Shown here in pieces: positions 3,325 to 17,867 of a stretch of 26,508 nucleotides of DNA. The notes below the pieces were generated by a model that had not been told where the DNA came from, did no database searches, and worked only from the letters and a program-made list of their open reading frames with translations. Position 1 is the first letter of the stretch, and the number at the start of each line of letters is the position of its first letter. Location of the stretch: IMG/VR virus record IMGVR_UViG_3300034062_003821, positions 1-26,508 of that record. One strand, given 5' to 3'. The stretch is from a virus. A program made the position numbers and the translations under genes.

Positions 3325-3516
3325 ATGGGCTTCATGACATTTGCAGATTGGCTTGAGAAGCAGGGTTTGGACGATGCGGCGGCGGGTAAACTCCTCGCAC
3401 GCGACCGATCGCACATTAGCAAGCTGCGCCGCGGCAAACACCGGCCGTCTTACGAATTGATGTTGCTAATCCAGAAGGTGAGCAAGGGCGCTGTGGGGCT
3501 TGAAACGTGGCGCTGA
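3325..3516 (+). CDS. Cro/XRE-type helix-turn-helix regulator
   Basis: Small DNA-binding protein of 63 residues (60 if the second ATG at 3334 is used, giving MTFADWLEKQGLDDAAAGKL). The segment DDAAAGKLLARDRSHISKLR followed by RGKHRPSYELMLLIQKVS matches the helix-turn-helix layout of the Cro/C1/XRE family: an AAGKL turn helix and a recognition helix with RSHISKLRRG. Neither ATG has a good Shine-Dalgarno sequence. A frame extending back to 2950 overlaps the divergent operon and is not credible. Probably controls the divergent promoters. Confidence 0.75.
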   Translation: MGFMTFADWLEKQGLDDAAAGKLLARDRSHISKLRRGKHRPSYELMLLIQKVSKGAVGLETWR

Positions 3517-3974
3517 GATTTACCATACCCGGTGAACCACGCGGCAAGGGACGTCCGCGGTTCGGACGCTCACGCGCCGGTTTTGCGGTGGCGTACACGG
3601 ACAACGCGACCGCAGCTTACGAAAACCTTGTCAAGCTGGCCGCACGCCAGGCAGGTGTGACGCCGATCGATGGGCCGCTGTTTGTGCAGGTCAATGCTTA
3701 CTTCTCGGTGCCGCAATCGTGGAGCAAGAAGCGCCGCGCGGCTGCGCTTGAAGGAGCCGAAGCGCCATCGCGTTTTGATGTTGACAATATCGCCAAAGCC
3801 GTTCTGGATGGTCTCAATGGTGTGGCGTTTGCGGACGACAAGCAGATCGTCACTCTACTGGCGAGCAAGGCTTTCGGGCATTTTGCGCGCTGCGAAGTAC
3901 AGGTTTTCCCAGCAATGGGAATAAAAGAGCAAGCGGTGGCATCCGACGAACTAAGGCCCTCTGGGCTCGAATAA
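3507..3974 (+). CDS. rusA: RusA-family Holliday junction resolvase
   Basis: RusA enzymes cut four-way DNA junctions made during recombination and replication. The 155-residue protein shows the N-terminal IPGEPRGKGRPRFG (residues 7-20) and the metal-binding stretch SRFDVDNIAKAVLDGLNGVA with FADDKQIV behind it (Asp91, Asp93, Asp110/111, Lys97), all characteristic of the family. The start is GTG 3507, overlapping the end of the regulator gene by ten bases; no other good start lies nearby. Expected to act with the Sak4-like ATPase and Cas4-like nuclease downstream. Length is slightly above E. coli RusA because of a C-terminal extension. Confidence 0.9.
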   Translation: MALRFTIPGEPRGKGRPRFGRSRAGFAVAYTDNATAAYENLVKLAARQAGVTPIDGPLFVQVNAYFSVPQSWSKKRRAAALEGAEAPSRFDVDNIAKAVLDGLNGVAFADDKQIVTLLASKAFGHFARCEVQVFPAMGIKEQAVASDELRPSGLE

Positions 3975-10477: not shown

Positions 10478-10765
10478 ATGGCCAAGGGCGTCAAGACAGG
10501 CGGCAGGACGAAGGGAACGCCGAACAAGTCAACCAAGGCTTTCAAGGAAGCCGTGGAGATTGCTTTTTCCGAGCTTGGCGGGGTCAATGGCCTGATTGAG
10601 TGGGCGAAGACGAACCCTGACGCTTTCTACAACGGGATCTTCCCCAAGTTGGCGCCGCTTCAAATTCACCACAGCGGCGATGACACCAAGCCTCCGGTTC
10701 GGATCGAGCACGGCATTGCCGGCCAGCGCGTCAAGTCGCTGCTGGAACAGATCGCCACCAAATGA
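10478..10765 (+). CDS. putative small terminase subunit / DUF5681-like protein
   Basis: 95 residues directly upstream of, and overlapping by four bases (ATGA), the large terminase. The N-terminus KTGGRTKGTPNKSTKAFKEA is the typical opening of a DUF5681-like family frequently found in the small-terminase position, and the later FYNGIFPKLAPLQIHHSGDD also recurs there. Small terminases recognise the packaging site and regulate the large subunit. This protein is short for that job, so the role is inferred from position. No clear ribosome binding site precedes ATG 10478. Confidence 0.55.
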   Translation: MAKGVKTGGRTKGTPNKSTKAFKEAVEIAFSELGGVNGLIEWAKTNPDAFYNGIFPKLAPLQIHHSGDDTKPPVRIEHGIAGQRVKSLLEQIATK

Positions 10766-12921
10766 CCGCCAGCACAGCCGAGCGCCTGGCAGCCCTGCCG
10801 CGTGACCAGCGTAACGCCATCATTGACCAGCTGTCGCCCGAAGAGCAGGAAGCCCTGCTGTATGACTGGCGCGAGTTTCTGGCGCGGCCTGAGCAGATAA
10901 CCCCTGAGGGCGACTGGGATATCTGGCTCATCATGTCCGGCCGCGGCTGGGGCAAGACCCGCACCGGGGCCGAGTGGGTCAAGGAACAGGTGGCCAAGGG
11001 CTACAGGCGGATTGCCCTGATCGGGGAGACAGCGGCCGACGCCCGCGACGTCATGGTGGAGGGCGTGTCCGGCATCCTGTCGGTCTACCCGGAAGCTGAG
11101 CGCCCGCTCTACGAGCCGTCAAAGCGCCGCCTGACCTGGCCGAACGGCGCTGTCGCCACGACATTCAACGCGACCGAGCCGGACCAGCTCCGAGGACCGC
11201 AGTTCGATCTAGCTTGGTGTTTTATTGCTGGGACGATGATCGAAACAAACCGGGGCGCAATCCCGATTGAGCAAGTCACTGACCGCGACATGGTCATGAC
11301 GCAACTGGGCTGGCGTCGGGTTGAGTGTAACGGATCACGAATTGCTGAAATTGGGACGGTTAAGTTCTCAACCGGCGCAGTTTTGACTGGCACTGCGGAC
11401 CATCCTGTTCTAAGTTTGCATGGTGAGACGATGCGTTGGACCGCATTGTCGGAACTGCAAACGGAAGAAACGGTATGTGCTCTGAGTGCGTGGAATGGGG
11501 CGGTAAACGCTGGCACCGATACCGAAACGGGTATTACGAATATCGCGGAACCAAATCACTTGGCCGCAAGGATCGCGACAGACTGCACCGCGCTGTCTGG
11601 AAAGCGCATCACGGGCCAATTCCGAACGGGCTCGACGTTCACCACATTGACGACAACCGCGCTAACAATGCTTTGGAAAACCTTCAGCTTTTGTCACGAT
11701 CAGATCACATGCGCCACCACGTCGCTGGTCGAGATGATTTCAAGGCAAAGTATGAGCCCAAGGCTACAATCTGTAGCAAGTGCGGCGCAGAGCTGGTCAG
11801 GCGCACCCGCCGGCAGGCCATATGCAGACGCTGCCAACAGATCAAAGCTGACAAGCGCCGCACGGTCGAGCGGCAATGCAAGGTCTGCAACTCGACATTC
11901 AGGACAATCAGCGGAAACTATTGCAGCCAGCGTTGTGTCAACCTGGGAGCCCGCTGGGCACGCTGAAGTCTTTTGCCTGCAAGTGTCAGAAGCAAAACAC
12001 TATTTTGCTAATGGCATTCTGGTTCATAATTGCGACGAGCTAGCCAAGTGGCGTTACGCCCGCGAGACGTGGGATCAGCTGTCCTTCGGCCTGCGCCTTG
12101 GCGATCACCCTCGCGTGCTTGTGACCACGACGCCCCGGCCGGTGGAGCTGGTCAAAGCCATCGTCGCCGGGACCGAAGGCAAAGTTCACATCACCCGTGG
12201 CGCGACCATGGACAACAAGTCCAACCTGGCGGCCAAGTTCCTCGAGCGCATCCAGCTTCGCTACGAAGGGACGCGCCTTGGCCGGCAGGAGCTGCGCGGG
12301 GAGATCCTTGGCGACATCCCGAATGCGCTCTGGACCTATGGCCAGATCGAAGCCAGCCGGGTTCGAGCCCATGACCCACTGGGCCGAATTGTGGTGGCGA
12401 TCGACCCTGCCGTCAGCAACACCGAGAACAGCGACGATCACGGCATCATTGTCGCTGGCATCCACGCCAGGACGCAGGAAGCCTATGTCCTCGAGGACGC
12501 ATCCATGGGCGGGACCCCGATGCAATGGGCGCGCCGGGCGGTGAACCTTTACGATCAGTATCAGGCCGACGCCATCGTCATCGAGGTCAACCAGGGCGGT
12601 GACATGGTCGCCCAGACCCTGCGAAGCGTGAGGAATAACGTGCGGATCAAGGAAGTCAGGGCAACTCGCGGCAAGCACATCCGGGCCGAGCCAATCGCTT
12701 CCATGTATGAGCAGGGCAGGGTGCATCATGTCGGCAGCTTCCCGGCGCTTGAGACGCAAATGACCCAAATGACGACCTTTGGCTATGAGGGCGACGGCAG
12801 CCCCGACCGGGTTGACGCGCTGGTCTGGGCGATGACGGACCTGTTCCCGGCCATGGTCGGCCGCCCAGTCAGCCAGCGAATAACTAAACCCGTTCCCATC
12901 GTGACACCGCTCGCGAGATAG
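10762..12921 (+). CDS. terL: terminase large subunit, interrupted by an intein
   Basis: Motor and nuclease that packages DNA into the prohead. Precursor of 719 residues. The ATPase has Walker A SGRGWGKTRTG (residues 59-69). Walker B, FDLAWCDELAKW, appears only after removing residues 153-423: the N-extein ends FDLAW and the C-extein begins CDELAKW. Joined, the protein is 448 residues, normal for this family. The nuclease half shows IVVAIDPA (Asp548), AIVIEVNQGGD and a final DRVDALVWAMTDL, the acidic residues expected for the RNase H-like fold. Starts in an ATGA overlap behind the putative small terminase. Because the insertion splits the ATPase active site, packaging must depend on protein splicing. 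Confidence 0.95.
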   Translation: MTASTAERLAALPRDQRNAIIDQLSPEEQEALLYDWREFLARPEQITPEGDWDIWLIMSGRGWGKTRTGAEWVKEQVAKGYRRIALIGETAADARDVMVEGVSGILSVYPEAERPLYEPSKRRLTWPNGAVATTFNATEPDQLRGPQFDLAWCFIAGTMIETNRGAIPIEQVTDRDMVMTQLGWRRVECNGSRIAEIGTVKFSTGAVLTGTADHPVLSLHGETMRWTALSELQTEETVCALSAWNGAVNAGTDTETGITNIAEPNHLAARIATDCTALSGKRITGQFRTGSTFTTLTTTALTMLWKTFSFCHDQITCATTSLVEMISRQSMSPRLQSVASAAQSWSGAPAGRPYADAANRSKLTSAARSSGNARSATRHSGQSAETIAASVVSTWEPAGHAEVFCLQVSEAKHYFANGILVHNCDELAKWRYARETWDQLSFGLRLGDHPRVLVTTTPRPVELVKAIVAGTEGKVHITRGATMDNKSNLAAKFLERIQLRYEGTRLGRQELRGEILGDIPNALWTYGQIEASRVRAHDPLGRIVVAIDPAVSNTENSDDHGIIVAGIHARTQEAYVLEDASMGGTPMQWARRAVNLYDQYQADAIVIEVNQGGDMVAQTLRSVRNNVRIKEVRATRGKHIRAEPIASMYEQGRVHHVGSFPALETQMTQMTTFGYEGDGSPDRVDALVWAMTDLFPAMVGRPVSQRITKPVPIVTPLAR
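11463..11467 (+). promoter_or_regulatory. ribosome binding site of the nested HNH gene
   Basis: GGAAG (continuing GGAAGAAA) ends seven bases before ATG 11475, inside the intein coding region. Good match and spacing for internal translation initiation, and the reason for choosing ATG 11475 over TTG 11436. Confidence 0.6.
11475..11966 (+). CDS. HNH homing endonuclease nested out of frame inside the intein
   Basis: 163 residues in a frame shifted by -1 (or +2) from terL, lying wholly inside the intein, between splicing blocks B and F. The N-terminal half contains WHRYRNGYYEYRG, DRLHRAVWKAHHGPIPNGLD and VHHIDDNRANNALENLQLLS, an HNH_3-type nuclease core (His56-His57, Asn69), then SDHMRHH. The C-terminal half has two zinc-ribbon-like units: C100/C103 with C117/C120, and C135/C138 with C150/C154. 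Its stop (TGA 11964-11966) falls at the beginning of block F. An in-frame TGA at 11424-11426 rules out a continuous upstream fusion. Expected role: cutting intein-less terL alleles to spread the element; not shown here. Confidence 0.9.
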   Translation: MCSECVEWGGKRWHRYRNGYYEYRGTKSLGRKDRDRLHRAVWKAHHGPIPNGLDVHHIDDNRANNALENLQLLSRSDHMRHHVAGRDDFKAKYEPKATICSKCGAELVRRTRRQAICRRCQQIKADKRRTVERQCKVCNSTFRTISGNYCSQRCVNLGARWAR

Positions 12922-12952: not shown

Positions 12953-15031
12953 TTGGCGCGACAAACCAAAGAACAGCGTTATCGAGACGTTCACGCCGAG
13001 GCGGTGGCCGAGTTCGCCCGCATTCAGGCGACGATGAAAGACGAACGCATTCAATGCCTTGAGGACCGGCGGTTCTACAGCATCGCCGGGGCCCAGTGGG
13101 AAGGATCGCTGACCGAGCAGTACGCGAACCGGCCCCGGTTTGAGGTGAACAAGGTCGCCTTGAGCGTCATGCGGATAATCAGCGAGTACCGCAATAATCG
13201 CATCACGGTTGATTTTATCCCCAAGGACGGGAGTTCAAACTCCCAGCTGGCCGACACGTGCGACGAGCTTTACCGGGCTGATGAAGAAGACAGCGGCGCG
13301 CAGGAGGCCTATGACAACGCTTTCGAGGAGGCGGTTGGCGGCGGGTTCGGGGCTTGGCGGCTGACGAACCAGTATGAGGACGAGGGCGACCCCGAGAACG
13401 AACAGCAGCGCATCGTGTTTCAGCCGATCTTCGATGCGGACGCTTCGGTCTTCTTCGACCTCGACGCCAAGCGGCAGGACAAGAAGGACGCGCGGTGCTG
13501 CTTTGTGTTGATCGCGATGACGCGCGACAGCTACCGGCGGCGGTTCGAGGATGACCCGTCAACCTGGCCGCAGGACGTGCAGCTCAAGGAATTTGACTGG
13601 CAGACGCCGGATATCGTTTACGTGGCGGAATATTACGTCAAGGAGCAGGTGTCCGAGGCGCTGCGTTACTTCCGCTCGCTGGATGGCGAGGAGGTCAAGC
13701 ATTCTGAACGCGACTTCGAGGCCGACCCGGAGCTCGAGCAGATGTTGCTCGCCACCGGCCATGTCGAGATTGAGGAGCGCAAGCGGCGCATCAAGCGGCA
13801 GAAGGTGCACAAATACCTGCTGTCCGGCGGCGGCATACTTGAAGACCATGGGCTGATTGCCGGGTCCGAGATCCCGATTGTTCCGGTCTATGGCAAGCGC
13901 TGGTTCGTTGACAGCATCGAGCGCTGCCAGGGGCATGTCAGGCTCGCCAAGGATGCCCAGCGGCTCAAGAACATGCAGCTGACCAAGTTGGGCGAGATCT
14001 CCGCTTACGGCACGATCCAGAAGCCCATCATGACGGCCGAGCAGGTGGCCGGTCACGAACTCATGTGGGCGGAAGATAACGTCAAACAGTATCCGTATCT
14101 CTTGGTTAACCCCGTGACGAATGCGGATGGAGCCGAGCAAGCGCAAGGCCCGCTTGACTACACGCGGGCGCCGGAAATCCCGCCCGCCATGGCGGCGCTC
14201 TTGCAGATTACCGATGGCGACATCAAAGAACTGCTCGGTAACCAGCAGGCCGGCGAGCAGTTGCAGCCCAACATGTCCGGCAAAGCCGTTGAGCTGATCC
14301 AGAACAAGCTGGACATGCAGACCTTTATTTATATGAGCAATTTCGCCAAGGCCGTGAAGCGCTGCGGCGAAATCTGGCTGTCCATGGCGCGGGAGATCTA
14401 CGTCGAGCCGAACCGCAAGATGAAGGGCCTGGGCAAGACGGGCGAGCCGCGATCGATTGAGCTGGTCAAGCCGATGCTCAACAAGGAAACCAGCGCGATC
14501 GAATACCAGAACGATCTGACGCAGGCCAAGTTCGACGTGACGGTGGACGTGGGCCCGAACTCCTCGAGCAAGCGCGCCGCGGTTGTCCGGGCGCTCACCG
14601 GCATGATGACCATCACGCAGGACCCCGAGACGCTGGCTATCCTAAGCAGCATGGCCATGATGAACATGGAAGGCGAGGGGCTTGGCGAGGTGCAGAACTA
14701 TTTCCGCAAGCGCCTACTGAAGCAGGGCGTGCTGGAGCCGAACGAGGAAGAAGCCGCGGCGATGGCCGCCGAGCTGGAGGCCATGCAGGCCCAGCCCGAC
14801 CCGCAAGCCGAGCTGGCCCAGAGCCTCGGGCTCGAGGCCCGCGCCAAGGCCGCCAAGGCCGAGGCCGACACGGAATATGCGCTTGCCCGCGCCGAAGAGA
14901 CGCGCGCCAAGACCATCGAAATCCTCACGAACGTCAGCGACCAGGAGCGGGCAGCCGTTCTCGGCGCGGCGCAGGAGATACGGCAGGCCAGCCAGCCGGT
15001 TCCAATGGCTGAGACACGAGGTATGCAATGA
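12953..15031 (+). CDS. P22-like portal protein
   Basis: Forms the dodecameric ring through which DNA enters and leaves the head. 692 residues, close to P22 gp1 (about 725). The opening (QRYRDVHAEAVAEFARIQAT, FYSIAGAQWEG, RPRFEVNKVALSVMRIISEY) and the middle (QGHVRLAKDAQRLKNMQLTK) are typical of the P22 portal family. The C-terminal 100 residues are a long Ala/Glu/Lys-rich helix (AKAAKAEADTEYALARAEET), equivalent to the barrel region. TTG 12953 is the start, with GAGGG upstream. It follows terL by 31 bases and overlaps the scaffold gene by four. Confidence 0.92.
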   Translation: MARQTKEQRYRDVHAEAVAEFARIQATMKDERIQCLEDRRFYSIAGAQWEGSLTEQYANRPRFEVNKVALSVMRIISEYRNNRITVDFIPKDGSSNSQLADTCDELYRADEEDSGAQEAYDNAFEEAVGGGFGAWRLTNQYEDEGDPENEQQRIVFQPIFDADASVFFDLDAKRQDKKDARCCFVLIAMTRDSYRRRFEDDPSTWPQDVQLKEFDWQTPDIVYVAEYYVKEQVSEALRYFRSLDGEEVKHSERDFEADPELEQMLLATGHVEIEERKRRIKRQKVHKYLLSGGGILEDHGLIAGSEIPIVPVYGKRWFVDSIERCQGHVRLAKDAQRLKNMQLTKLGEISAYGTIQKPIMTAEQVAGHELMWAEDNVKQYPYLLVNPVTNADGAEQAQGPLDYTRAPEIPPAMAALLQITDGDIKELLGNQQAGEQLQPNMSGKAVELIQNKLDMQTFIYMSNFAKAVKRCGEIWLSMAREIYVEPNRKMKGLGKTGEPRSIELVKPMLNKETSAIEYQNDLTQAKFDVTVDVGPNSSSKRAAVVRALTGMMTITQDPETLAILSSMAMMNMEGEGLGEVQNYFRKRLLKQGVLEPNEEEAAAMAAELEAMQAQPDPQAELAQSLGLEARAKAAKAEADTEYALARAEETRAKTIEILTNVSDQERAAVLGAAQEIRQASQPVPMAETRGMQ

Positions 15032-15855
15032 TAGACGAACAGACGCCTGAGCCAGAGACCGAGGCGGTCGAGGCTGCTACCCCGGACAGCGAGACGCAGC
15101 CGGAAGCAGAACAGGAAGAGCTGGTTGTCAGTATTGCTGGCGAAGAGCCCGAACCACAAGCCGAAGCGCCGACGGGCGCCCCGGAATGGGTGAAGGAACT
15201 GCGCCGGAAGAACCGGGAACTTGAAAAACGCGTCCGTCAGCTGGACCGCGAACGCCAGACCGAGGCACCGCGGGGTGAGACAGTCACCGCCCCGCCAAAG
15301 AAGCCGACGCTGGCTGACGTGGATTACGACACGGAAGCGTATGACAAGCGCCTTGATGAATGGTATAAAGCCAAAGCCGCGCATGAGCGCGAGGCGGAAT
15401 TGAGGAGGCAGGCTGAACAGGAAGCCCAGAGCCAGTGGCAGGCGAAGCTCGCCGGTTACACCACTGAGAAGGCGACCCTGAAAGCCCGTGACTTCGAGGA
15501 CGCAGAAGCTGTTGTGGCCGACACCCTGTCGGTGGCGCAACAGGGAATGATATTGGCCGGCGCTGAAAAGCCCGCGCTCCTGATCTACGCACTCGGGCGC
15601 AACCCGAAGAAGGCTGCCGAGCTGGCGGCGATTAAAGACCCGGTGCAATTCGCTTTCGCGGTTGCGCGCCTGGAGGGCAACTTGAAAGTTCAACAACGCA
15701 AACCATCGGCTGCGCCGGAGCAGATCGTCAGCGGAAATGCTGCGAAGTCCGGAGCTGTCGATAATCAATTGGATCGGCTTCGCGCTGAAGCTGAACGCAC
15801 GGGCGACTATTCAAAAGTCATGGCCTATCGGCGTCAGTTGAAGCGGCGGGCCTAG
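15028..15855 (+). CDS. scaffolding protein
   Basis: 275 residues in the usual place between portal and coat genes. Acidic, proline-rich N-terminus (PEPETEAVEAATPDSETQPE), a long charged helical middle (WVKELRRKNRELEKRVRQLD), and a strongly basic helical C-terminus (YSKVMAYRRQLKRRA). Scaffolds of the P22 type use such a basic helical tail to bind coat protein. Starts in an ATGA overlap with the portal, with GAGG upstream. It is followed by an endonuclease gene, not directly by the coat gene. Confidence 0.85.
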   Translation: MIDEQTPEPETEAVEAATPDSETQPEAEQEELVVSIAGEEPEPQAEAPTGAPEWVKELRRKNRELEKRVRQLDRERQTEAPRGETVTAPPKKPTLADVDYDTEAYDKRLDEWYKAKAAHEREAELRRQAEQEAQSQWQAKLAGYTTEKATLKARDFEDAEAVVADTLSVAQQGMILAGAEKPALLIYALGRNPKKAAELAAIKDPVQFAFAVARLEGNLKVQQRKPSAAPEQIVSGNAAKSGAVDNQLDRLRAEAERTGDYSKVMAYRRQLKRRA

Positions 15856-15865
15856 GGTAAGAGCA

Positions 15866-16597
15866 ATGGCTTCCCAGAGCTCGTCTGCGTACATGAAAGA
15901 GTGGCGCAGGCGTAAAATGCAGGAAGACCCGGAGTTCTTGGAGCGGGAACGCGCCAAGGCACGGGAAAGATCGCGCGCCAAATGGGAAGCTATGCGTAAC
16001 GATCCTGAGTATATTGAGAAGGAGCGCGCTCGTAAGCGTGAACTGCAAGCGAGAAGGCGCGCCGACCCTGAAAAGAATGCTCGTATTATTGAGCAACGCA
16101 AAAGGGTTCAGGCAACTCCTGAATATAAAAAGGCTCAAAAACAAAGGCTAAAGAAATGGAAGGCTCAAAAGGCTGCCCATGTTCAAAGCTATCAAAGGCA
16201 ATGGCGCGAAAAGAACGTTGACGCAGTCAGAGCTTATAATGCTGAGTACATGAAAGGTTATGCTCAAACGGAAGGCTACCTTGTGAGCCGCACAAAACGA
16301 CGCTTCAAGACCTACAATATTACCGCATTCGATTTTAACGCGATGTGGGAAAGTCAGAATGGCTGTTGCGCCATCTGTCAGATAAAGTTGCAGCCGCGAG
16401 GAAGATCCAAAAACTCCGCGGCGATCGATCACAACCACAAAACGAGAGAAATGCGCGGTATCCTCTGCCGGGGTTGTAATCACGGGATCGGAATGCTTGG
16501 AGACAATCCATCAACATTAATCGCAGCCGCAGAATACCTTATGAAAAAAGGTTATTACGGCGAAAATCAAAAAACTGGAGTAATATCAAATGGTTAA
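15866..16597 (+). CDS. endonuclease VII-type HNH nuclease, probable free-standing homing endonuclease
   Basis: 243 residues inserted between scaffold and coat genes. The C-terminal domain has FNAMWESQNGCCAICQIKLQ (Cys168, Cys171), AIDHNHKTREMRGILCRGCN (His189, His191, Cys201, Cys204) and GMLGDNPSTLIAAAEYL, the conserved beta-beta-alpha metal pattern of phage endonuclease VII. The first 130 residues are a very basic helical stretch with repeated DPE(F/Y) and RERA-like elements, possibly DNA-binding. By eye the DNA is AT-richer than its neighbours. The last eight bases overlap the coat gene. Family members are either junction resolvases or mobile nucleases; its place within a conserved gene pair favours the latter. 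Confidence 0.88.
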   Translation: MASQSSSAYMKEWRRRKMQEDPEFLERERAKARERSRAKWEAMRNDPEYIEKERARKRELQARRRADPEKNARIIEQRKRVQATPEYKKAQKQRLKKWKAQKAAHVQSYQRQWREKNVDAVRAYNAEYMKGYAQTEGYLVSRTKRRFKTYNITAFDFNAMWESQNGCCAICQIKLQPRGRSKNSAAIDHNHKTREMRGILCRGCNHGIGMLGDNPSTLIAAAEYLMKKGYYGENQKTGVISNG

Positions 16598-17867
16598 CGC
16601 GTTTAGCCGCGAAGAGAGGGTGGCCTTCGAGGATATTCTTGAAGGATTTCAAGACGCTCTCGTAATGTCCCGCAACGTCTCGCTGTATCAGACCGATCAG
16701 CAAATGATGGAGCGCACGAACAACATCATCTGGCGCCCCCAGCCCTACATCATGGTCTCATACACCGGCACCGACATGACGTCGAACTTCAAGGACCGCA
16801 CGCAGCTCGCGGTGCCTGCCACGATAGGCTTTAACAAGTCGGTTCCTTGGGCCATGACGGCGACAGAACTGCGTGACGCCCTGCAGGAAGGCCGCCTGGC
16901 TGACGGCGCCCGTCAGAAGCTGGCGTCAGACATCAATGTCGCTATCATGAACGTCGCCTCGGCGCAGGGCTCGCTGGTTGTTCCGATCTCGGCTGCGCCG
17001 GGCAAGTACGACCACATCGCCCTTGCCGACACGATCATGAACGAACAGGGCGTGCCGTCCAATGACCGCTATTTCGCGCTCTCGAGCCGCGATTATAACG
17101 GCCTTGCGGCTGACCTCTCGGGCATCTCGCGTTCGTTTGGCAACCCGAAGTCGGATCGCGCTTATGAGCGGTCTTATGTCGGACCCGTTGCCGGGTTCGA
17201 GACTTACAAGATGGATTACGCCAACCGCATTCTCGCGGCCGCCGGCGGCGCCATCACGATCTCGACCGAGGACGCTGGCCTTAACTATTACAACCCGGTC
17301 GCCACTTCGACGGCCGGAACGGGCGAAGTCAGCAACGTTGACAACCGCTTCCAGACGGTGACGGTCTCTTCCTCCGCCAACGTCGTTGCCGGCGATTGCT
17401 TTACAATCGCGAACGTGTTCGCCGTCCACCACATCACCAAAGTCAACACCGGGCAGCTCAAGACTTTCCGCGTTGTCTCGGTGCCGGCTGGCGGAACCAC
17501 GCTCGTCATTACCCCGCCGATCATCTCCAACCAGGTGGCCAACGATGCTGCGGCCCAGTACCAGAACGTCGCTGTTACGGCCAAGTCCGCAACGGCCACG
17601 ATCACCTGGCTCAACATCGACCCGACGCAGATTAACTGCTTCTGGCAGAAAGACGCTCTGGAAATCCTTCCGGGCCGCTATGCGGTGCCGAACGATGCTG
17701 GCGCGGCTGTCATGCGGGCGACGACAGATCAGGGCATTGAGCTGGTCATGACCAAACAATATGACATCAAGACGATGAAGACTTTCTATCGTCTCGATAC
17801 GCTGTTCGGCGTGGTGAACAAGAACCCCGAAATGTCGGGCGTCCTCCTGTTCAACCAGGTCACTTAA
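16590..17867 (+). CDS. P22-like major coat protein
   Basis: Main shell protein, 425 residues (P22 gp5 has 430). The opening FEDILEGFQDALVMSRNVSL, then RPQPYIMVSYTGTDMTSNFK, QLAVPATIGFNKSVPWAMTA and the ending TFYRLDTLFGVVNKNPEMSG are typical of the P22 coat family. Residues about 225-345 are rich in Val, Thr and Ser strands and correspond to the inserted I-domain that stabilises P22 coat. ATG 16590 has GGAG nine bases upstream, within the end of the endonuclease gene. The abundant product is expected to be followed by a terminator, and one is present. Confidence 0.95.
   Translation: MVNAFSREERVAFEDILEGFQDALVMSRNVSLYQTDQQMMERTNNIIWRPQPYIMVSYTGTDMTSNFKDRTQLAVPATIGFNKSVPWAMTATELRDALQEGRLADGARQKLASDINVAIMNVASAQGSLVVPISAAPGKYDHIALADTIMNEQGVPSNDRYFALSSRDYNGLAADLSGISRSFGNPKSDRAYERSYVGPVAGFETYKMDYANRILAAAGGAITISTEDAGLNYYNPVATSTAGTGEVSNVDNRFQTVTVSSSANVVAGDCFTIANVFAVHHITKVNTGQLKTFRVVSVPAGGTTLVITPPIISNQVANDAAAQYQNVAVTAKSATATITWLNIDPTQINCFWQKDALEILPGRYAVPNDAGAAVMRATTDQGIELVMTKQYDIKTMKTFYRLDTLFGVVNKNPEMSGVLLFNQVT

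Follow-up and report, generated by a model that had tools for sequence, protein, structure and literature searches.

A nuclease gene between the scaffold and coat genes

IMG/VR virus record IMGVR_UViG_3300034062_003821, taken over its positions 1 to 26,508 (the whole stretch of 26,508 nucleotides is called the window below), carries a gene for an endonuclease VII (EndoVII)-type nuclease between the genes for the head scaffolding and coat proteins. The surrounding head module is P22-like: a terminase gene with an intein (10762-12921) and a portal gene (12953-15031) are followed by the scaffold, nuclease and coat genes. The junction has the following features:

15028..15855, + strand: flanking head scaffolding gene (phrog_648, E 4.5e-54)
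15856..16589, + strand: segment from the scaffold stop codon to the coat ATG, 734 bp versus 21 bp in the empty relative L005
15866..16597, + strand: free-standing gene for a nuclease with the EndoVII motif (DHHRN type), 243 aa (Pfam, PHROG, and ratio of nonsynonymous to synonymous substitution rates, dN/dS)
16577..16580, + strand: GGAG located 9 bp upstream of the coat ATG, within the 3' end of the nuclease gene; probably the ribosome-binding site for coat
16590..17867, + strand: flanking P22-like coat gene (PF11651, E 7.2e-80)

The nuclease open reading frame (ORF) matches Pfam family PF02945 (Endonuclease_7) at residues 144-226 (E 2.8e-19, 69.2 bits with a cut-off of 23.6) and PHROG families named 'endonuclease VII' (best E 6.6e-29). 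It begins 10 bp after the scaffold stop codon, shares 8 bp at its 3' end with the coat ORF and probably also carries the coat ribosome-binding site there. A preliminary description of this DNA had already placed the coat start and its binding site within the nuclease gene, and had called the gene AT-richer by eye. Both remarks are borne out. The gene has a GC content of 48.1%, compared with 59.9 +/- 1.9% in 26 other ORFs (z -6.2), and a GC content at third codon positions of 49.2% versus 69.8 +/- 6.1% (z -3.4); each is the lowest value among the 28 ORFs listed. The nuclease is also low in GC in four other carriers of the gene (L085, L023, L003 and L084), where it has 44-52% and the remainder of the locus 52-61%. 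The shift has the same direction in L169 and L170, with 52% for the nuclease versus 57-58% (approximate limits).

Empty alleles and distribution

In contig L005, whose scaffold and coat proteins are 98% and 99% identical to those of the window, a gap of 21 bp replaces the 734 bp. The wider comparison comprised 162 contigs and records including the window (duplicates removed), which came from a coat query, a nuclease query, a scaffold query, a nuclease profile and three GenBank phage records. The scaffold-coat junction was readable in 148 of them and unreadable in 13; in the remaining one, L171, the nuclease adjoins the scaffold gene and the contig stops short of the coat gene. Ten of the 148 readable junctions are occupied (window included) and 138 are empty, the largest nuclease-free gap being 203 bp. 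The ratio of 10/148 is not a frequency, because the queries returned the best 80 of 539 (coat) and the best 80 of 295 (scaffold) loci, some carriers were fetched by the nuclease query, and one contig (L082) equals the window over its whole 6161 bases. With the coat query alone (best 80 of 539), 5 of 73 readable junctions were occupied and 7 of the 80 loci were cut off. Quick trees of coat (144 rows) and portal (101 rows) each require at least five changes of presence. The three annotated phage records nearest by coat (MW202867, MW202475 and PfAn1) have no gene between scaffold and coat. These comparisons show that the nuclease gene is an insertion into the usual scaffold-coat pair, in agreement with the preliminary description, which had the gene interrupting that pair.

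In 30 of the nuclease-free junctions (L018, L019, L040, L058, L062 and others) the scaffold-coat gap falls in the range of 31-210 bp.

A profile built from five nucleases retrieved 14 viral loci, ten with at least 48% identity and four with 29-39%. All ten of the closer relatives lie after a scaffold gene; nine also lie before a coat gene, and the contig of the other one ends first. The four weaker relatives have no scaffold or coat gene in the stretches compared. Coat proteins of the carriers are 54 to 100% identical to that of the window. Among the genomes of 84,980 bacterial and archaeal species (one genome each), a search for relatives gave 59 pattern matches, of which none was confirmed. 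A full-text search, together with titles and abstract openings of related literature, yielded no published report of this insertion.

The nuclease protein

Two parts can be told apart in the protein:

15866..16201, + strand: helical N-terminal part rich in K/R, in which a P-E-(F/Y/K) repeat occurs four times (residues 22, 47, 68 and 85; structure model)
16295..16543, + strand: Endonuclease_7 catalytic domain, residues 144-226, with C168/C171, D188 H189 x H191, R197, C201/C204 and N205

The set of residues that characterizes the DHHRN family (CX2-4C, DHxH, R, CX2C, N), which Fang et al. 2018 defined on the enzyme F-CphI (PMC6083498), is complete in the window nuclease, and all nine residues are invariant across six aligned sequences, window included. 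In that study, most proteins with a C-terminal motif are placed in a homing/restriction clade and most with an N-terminal motif in a resolvase clade (PMC6083498). In the window nuclease and likewise in five relatives the motif is C-terminal by its position in the sequence (144-226 of 243). The best solved relatives by sequence are Hpy99I (PDB 3fc3, E 5.6e-8) and T4 EndoVII (E 1.8e-7), both over the catalytic stretch alone; the alignment with T4 EndoVII is confined to residues 13-70 of its 157-residue chain, which are matched with profile positions 158-213.

A structure model of modest quality (mean predicted local distance difference test score, pLDDT, 70.4; predicted template modelling score 0.31), in which blocks within residues 11-100 have a mean pLDDT of 85-93, has a helical N-terminus. 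In the same model, of low overall confidence, strands at 184-189 and 196-201 are followed by a helix at 202-209, which is the beta-beta-alpha order. A Foldseek search with the model gave no match at E <= 0.001; its top-ranked entries were Hpy99I (0.01) and T4 EndoVII (0.038). The N-terminal K/R-rich helical part is probably the DNA-binding part. Residues 63-110 within it are strongly basic (16 K+R, 4 D+E), and their DNA is the least similar stretch between the window and L002, L003, L008 and L084. In two shorter relatives, L023 and L170 (161 aa as aligned), some 80 residues are missing from the N-terminus. The L084 nuclease differs from those of other carriers in its last fifth, and its gene ends, stop codon included, in sequence similar to the 21 bp between scaffold and coat in L005.

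A usable dS was obtained for 6 of 15 pairs of relatives. The dN/dS values were 0.37, 0.38 and 0.19 for the window versus L003, L084 and L085, while the three remaining pairs gave 0.48, 0.20 and 0.21. Values of 0.19-0.48 indicate purifying selection, so the nuclease has been kept functional.

Flanking sequences of occupied and empty alleles

Comparison of the flanks brought out three further features:

15793..15852, + strand: end of the scaffold gene (codons 256-275), a second and weaker candidate for a conversion tract (codon comparison with L005)
16313..16735, + strand: block of 423 bp identical in the window, L002, L003 and L008, spanning the nuclease-coat boundary
16594..16703, + strand: recoded coat start (codons 2-38), a candidate both for a tract of co-conversion and, in empty alleles, for the target (codon comparison)

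Between the window and L005, 22 of the first 39 coat codons differ (19 silently), as opposed to 48 of 386 in the remainder of the coat gene. Over the 1391 codons of portal, scaffold and coat, the differences are densest in a 30-codon cluster at 16593-16682, a density reached in 0 of 2000 shuffles. The same cluster appears when L005 is compared with L008 (1197 codons) and with L002 and L003 (scaffold and coat only), again with 0 of 2000 shuffles each. These three carriers and the window share all of the first 39 coat codons (0/39 differ); beyond codon 39 the window differs from L008 in 53 of 363 and from L003 in 64 of 385 codons, and overall DNA identity of the three to the window is 91.4-94.4%. 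In a hunt for donors, an exact 30-base pattern of the recoded coat start occurred in four contigs, all of them carriers; for the empty-type start, a pattern of 29 bases matched exactly in L005 and the contig of L084 alone. On the scaffold side, 10 of 20 codons (256-275) differ from L005 in L002, L003 and L008, 7 of 20 in L084 and 2 of 20 in the window. The flanks suggest intronless homing, and because the window and the L002/L003/L008 group have a recoded 5' end of the coat gene, we regard that end as a candidate target of the nuclease in empty alleles.

As a control, 408 empty-empty pairs from 96 contigs were used, with 5-30% codon difference beyond codon 39. Their mean difference was 0.216 at the coat start and 0.205 in the remainder, the maximum at the coat start was 0.41, and the ratio of the two exceeded 2 in 33 of the 408 pairs. 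The corresponding coat-start difference from L005 is 0.56 for the window, L002, L003 and L008 (ratios 2.65-4.54), and 0.54 for the carrier-empty pair L085-L096 (ratio 1.99).

The nuclease-free contig L121 has coat codons 1-39 that diverge up to 4.3 times as much as the remainder from several relatives. This coat start may reflect a lost nuclease or plain recombination.

Phylogeny of the nuclease and its neighbours

Trees were tested for five carriers (window, L085, L169, L170 and L023, the last entered as L172); the L085 portal (190 aa) and the L169 coat (220 aa) are partial. Portal and scaffold trees group L169 with L170 and the window with L085. In the nuclease tree the window again joins L085, and L170 joins L023; in the coat tree L085 joins L170. 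In approximately unbiased tests on the nuclease data, the best tree of portal/scaffold (p 0.00017) and that of coat (p 0.0005) were both rejected, and the best nuclease tree is rejected by the portal (2.4e-52), scaffold (1.5e-6) and coat data (1.6e-9). Left unrejected were three trees for the nuclease and four for the coat. The tests indicate that in these five carriers the phylogeny of the nuclease is independent of that of the flanking genes. As an example, L169 and L170 have portals that are 96% identical and nucleases that are 46% identical.

L085 and L170 display a swap of the coat gene between distant head modules, their coats being 91% identical, their portals 46% (190 aa compared) and their scaffolds 43%.

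Seven pairs combine a portal identity above 85% with a coat identity below 75%; four of these include a carrier, and three of the four are L023 against the similar contigs L026-L028. The opposite combination (coat above 85%, portal below 65%) was found in 42 pairs, 8 with and 34 without a carrier. The counts of carrier and non-carrier pairs give no support to the nuclease as a general cause of portal-coat mosaicism, and we do not claim it as one, since head-gene mosaicism is widespread without it.

A probable homing endonuclease and its alternatives

We consider it likely that the gene encodes a free-standing homing endonuclease with the EndoVII motif (DHHRN, F-CphI-like) that moves by intronless homing. 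We base this on its nature as an insertion that occurs patchily and at a single fixed place, and on its low GC content, purifying selection, intact motif, conversion-like tracts and tree conflict. The nuclease would presumably be expressed from the head operon; its basic helical N-terminal part would bind DNA and its C-terminal EndoVII-type beta-beta-alpha-metal domain would cut the DNA of co-infecting phages without the gene, either at their scaffold-coat junction or close to it, the conserved coat start being a possible site. Repair of the break from the carrier genome would then copy in the nuclease gene together with some scaffold and coat flank. In the window, the copied coat flank would use other codons for an almost unchanged protein, and immunity could come from this recoding or from the insertion itself. 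We infer expression, cleavage, target position and immunity.

Several observations weigh against this interpretation. The main comparison is anchored by one close empty contig, L005, a metagenomic sequence of 6.6 kb. L002, L003 and L008 are 97-99% identical among themselves (L002-L003 99.2%, L003-L008 97.4%), and therefore the recoded tract represents about two lineages (the window and this group) and not four independent cases. The left tract holds the densest cluster of window-L008 and window-L003 (15757-15846), but this peak is not significant (124 of 2000 shuffles for window-L008, 67 of 2000 for window-L003). Clustered differences also arise elsewhere, as seen from L003-L008, which have an equally sharp cluster within the coat gene (17622-17711, 0 of 2000 shuffles), and from L084 versus L005, with the densest cluster in the portal gene (27 of 2000). 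The carrier L084 (the same as L004) keeps an empty-type coat start, with 3 of 39 codons differing from L005 (coat-start difference 0.08, ratio 0.56). In the near pair of L023 (occupied) and L022 (empty), the coat-start difference is 0.15 versus 0.12 elsewhere (ratio 1.28). Among the empty-empty pairs a ratio above 3 was reached in 10 of 408, and L121 is involved in 7 of the 8 highest. An excess at the coat start outside the range of empty pairs is thus clear in one lineage pair and missing in two.

The L023-L022 pair has 10 differences in coat bases 1-30 and none in the next 176; then comes a divergent patch, followed by nearly identical sequence (61 of 1269 bases differ overall), and the scaffold ends are visibly divergent. 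This alignment reads as a breakpoint at the insertion edge without a long recoded tract. Immunity by coat recoding is not general, because L084 has the empty-type start and L023-L022 lack a long tract. That coat recoding provides immunity in all carriers was accordingly rejected, L023 being unrecoded relative to L022 past the first 30 bases.

Portal-coat mosaicism and recombination at the junction are also common among empty relatives. This would suit a moron, a cargo gene of neutral or beneficial effect, that owes its movement to ordinary homologous recombination at a hot spot in the junction and not to homing driven by a nuclease. The low GC content and the tree conflict are equally compatible with such cargo, and the L023-L022 pair shows a breakpoint at the insertion edge alone. 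Cargo of this kind nevertheless seems unlikely to us in view of the single insertion place in phages with coats down to 54% identical to that of the window, the silent changes that cluster at the insertion edge, where carriers are exactly identical, and the conserved nuclease motif under purifying selection. Another alternative is a true EndoVII, resident in the phage as a Holliday-junction resolvase or as a debranching enzyme, that packaging needs and that lies beside the coat gene by chance; it would explain the Pfam family name and the T4 EndoVII match. The preliminary description had held that presence at this place in all relatives, with matching composition, would suggest such an enzyme; what we found is a gene with a GC content far off that of its surroundings and absent from most readable junctions, including that of a near-identical phage (copies elsewhere in those genomes were not sought). 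The motif is C-terminal, while that of most of the resolvase clade is reported as N-terminal (PMC6083498), there is no full-length alignment with T4 EndoVII, and the phage has its own RusA-like gene (3507-3974). Given the patchy presence, the motif position and the RusA-like resolvase, a resident resolvase is very unlikely. Still less can be said for a packaging-associated HNH protein like those beside terminase or portal genes of other phages (HrdP type), which we regard as extremely improbable. The nuclease does lie in the head/packaging module, and some HNH proteins are known to take part in packaging (PMC12724721), but HrdP is reported from every Skunavirus genome analysed and is encoded there between terminase and portal (PMC12724721), whereas the window nuclease has a patchy distribution and a place between scaffold and coat.

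As a homing endonuclease, the window gene has its nearest likeness in F-CphI of cyanophage S-PM2, which has a C-terminal EndoVII motif with D-H-x-H, R, N and two CxxC pairs (PMC6083498) and cuts psbA of another phage, S-BM4 (PMC6083498). The tested enzyme of that study is intron-associated, and gp6 of phage VR7 is called a probable free-standing homing endonuclease there (PMC6083498). The window nuclease differs from F-CphI in its place in a P22-like head operon and in its longer, repeat-bearing N-terminus; no intron was noticed near it, although no intron search was made. T4 EndoVII (gp49) is similar in the catalytic stretch and motif but is a resident resolvase with an N-terminal motif, and its remaining part, which serves dimerisation and junction binding, is unmatched in the alignment. 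Hpy99I, the best solved-structure match by sequence, has its motif near the C-terminus; it is a restriction enzyme with an adjacent methylase (PMC6083498), while in the window more than 13 kb separate the nuclease gene from the two methyltransferase genes.

In phage T4, genes 23 and 24 are head genes. The T4 Seg enzymes resemble the window nuclease in being encoded by free-standing genes between other genes, and segD lies between 23 and 24 (PMC2988022). They differ in being GIY-YIG enzymes (segF is a hybrid), and the T4 free-standing enzymes are reported to cut hundreds or thousands of bases from their genes (PMC2988022), a precedent that counts against a target at the junction itself. The same review describes intronless homing and flank co-conversion by free-standing enzymes, lists segF and segG as promoter-less cassettes, and gives high inheritance in T4 x T2 mixed infections, with the activity and target of SegD itself listed as undetermined (PMC2988022). 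Barth et al. 2023 describe two other homing endonuclease families near essential genes, including capsid genes, and repeat-bearing DNA-binding parts in them (PMC10448857); the term 'endonuclease VII' is absent from its text. The gene fits a known kind of homing endonuclease, and what is new is its place and the series of alleles.

The preliminary description had further suggested that the nuclease may target coat-flanking DNA of competing phages. The insertion of the gene, with homing marks around it, stood up to the comparison; cutting of coat-flanking DNA in competitors is a possibility, and a role as a competition weapon an inference. An intron endonuclease of phage PhiPA3 is reported to harm competitors (PMC11620839). 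We can also imagine, as a tentative and rather doubtful extension, that the nuclease is a capsid-allele exclusion device, which would cut the conserved coat start of rivals and overwrite it with a silently recoded, uncuttable start. The recoding would then mark self and non-self, the tandem P-E-(F/Y/K) repeats would form a modular array for reading DNA, and their exchange (residues 63-110 are mosaic among carriers) would retune the target.

If the gene is indeed a homing endonuclease, it would add a free-standing member with the EndoVII motif to a family whose tested enzyme is intron-associated (PMC6083498). It would also provide a series of natural alleles at one head-gene junction, some occupied, some empty and some converted in different ways, and with it a way to probe self-immunity (silent recoding versus insertion) and the extent of driven capsid-gene exchange between phages.

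Other genes of the window

Two further genes bear on the points above:

3507..3974, + strand: RusA-like Holliday junction resolvase of the phage (phrog_140, E 5.9e-38)
11436-11966, + strand: HNH_3 nuclease ORF in the terminase intein (PF13392, E 5.7e-18), in a + frame unlike that of the terminase and intein

The intein-nested HNH gene had been pointed out in the preliminary description and is indeed present. The intein of the terminase large subunit lies at about 11218-12045, and the nested ORF overlaps its coding sequence; L005 and L084 lack the intein (alignment breaks at 11220 and 12043). The window also encodes a Sak4-like annealing protein and a Cas4-domain exonuclease, which could serve repair. 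Two adjacent DNA methyltransferase genes (459-1451 and 1438-2304) lie on the - strand, opposite to the head genes.
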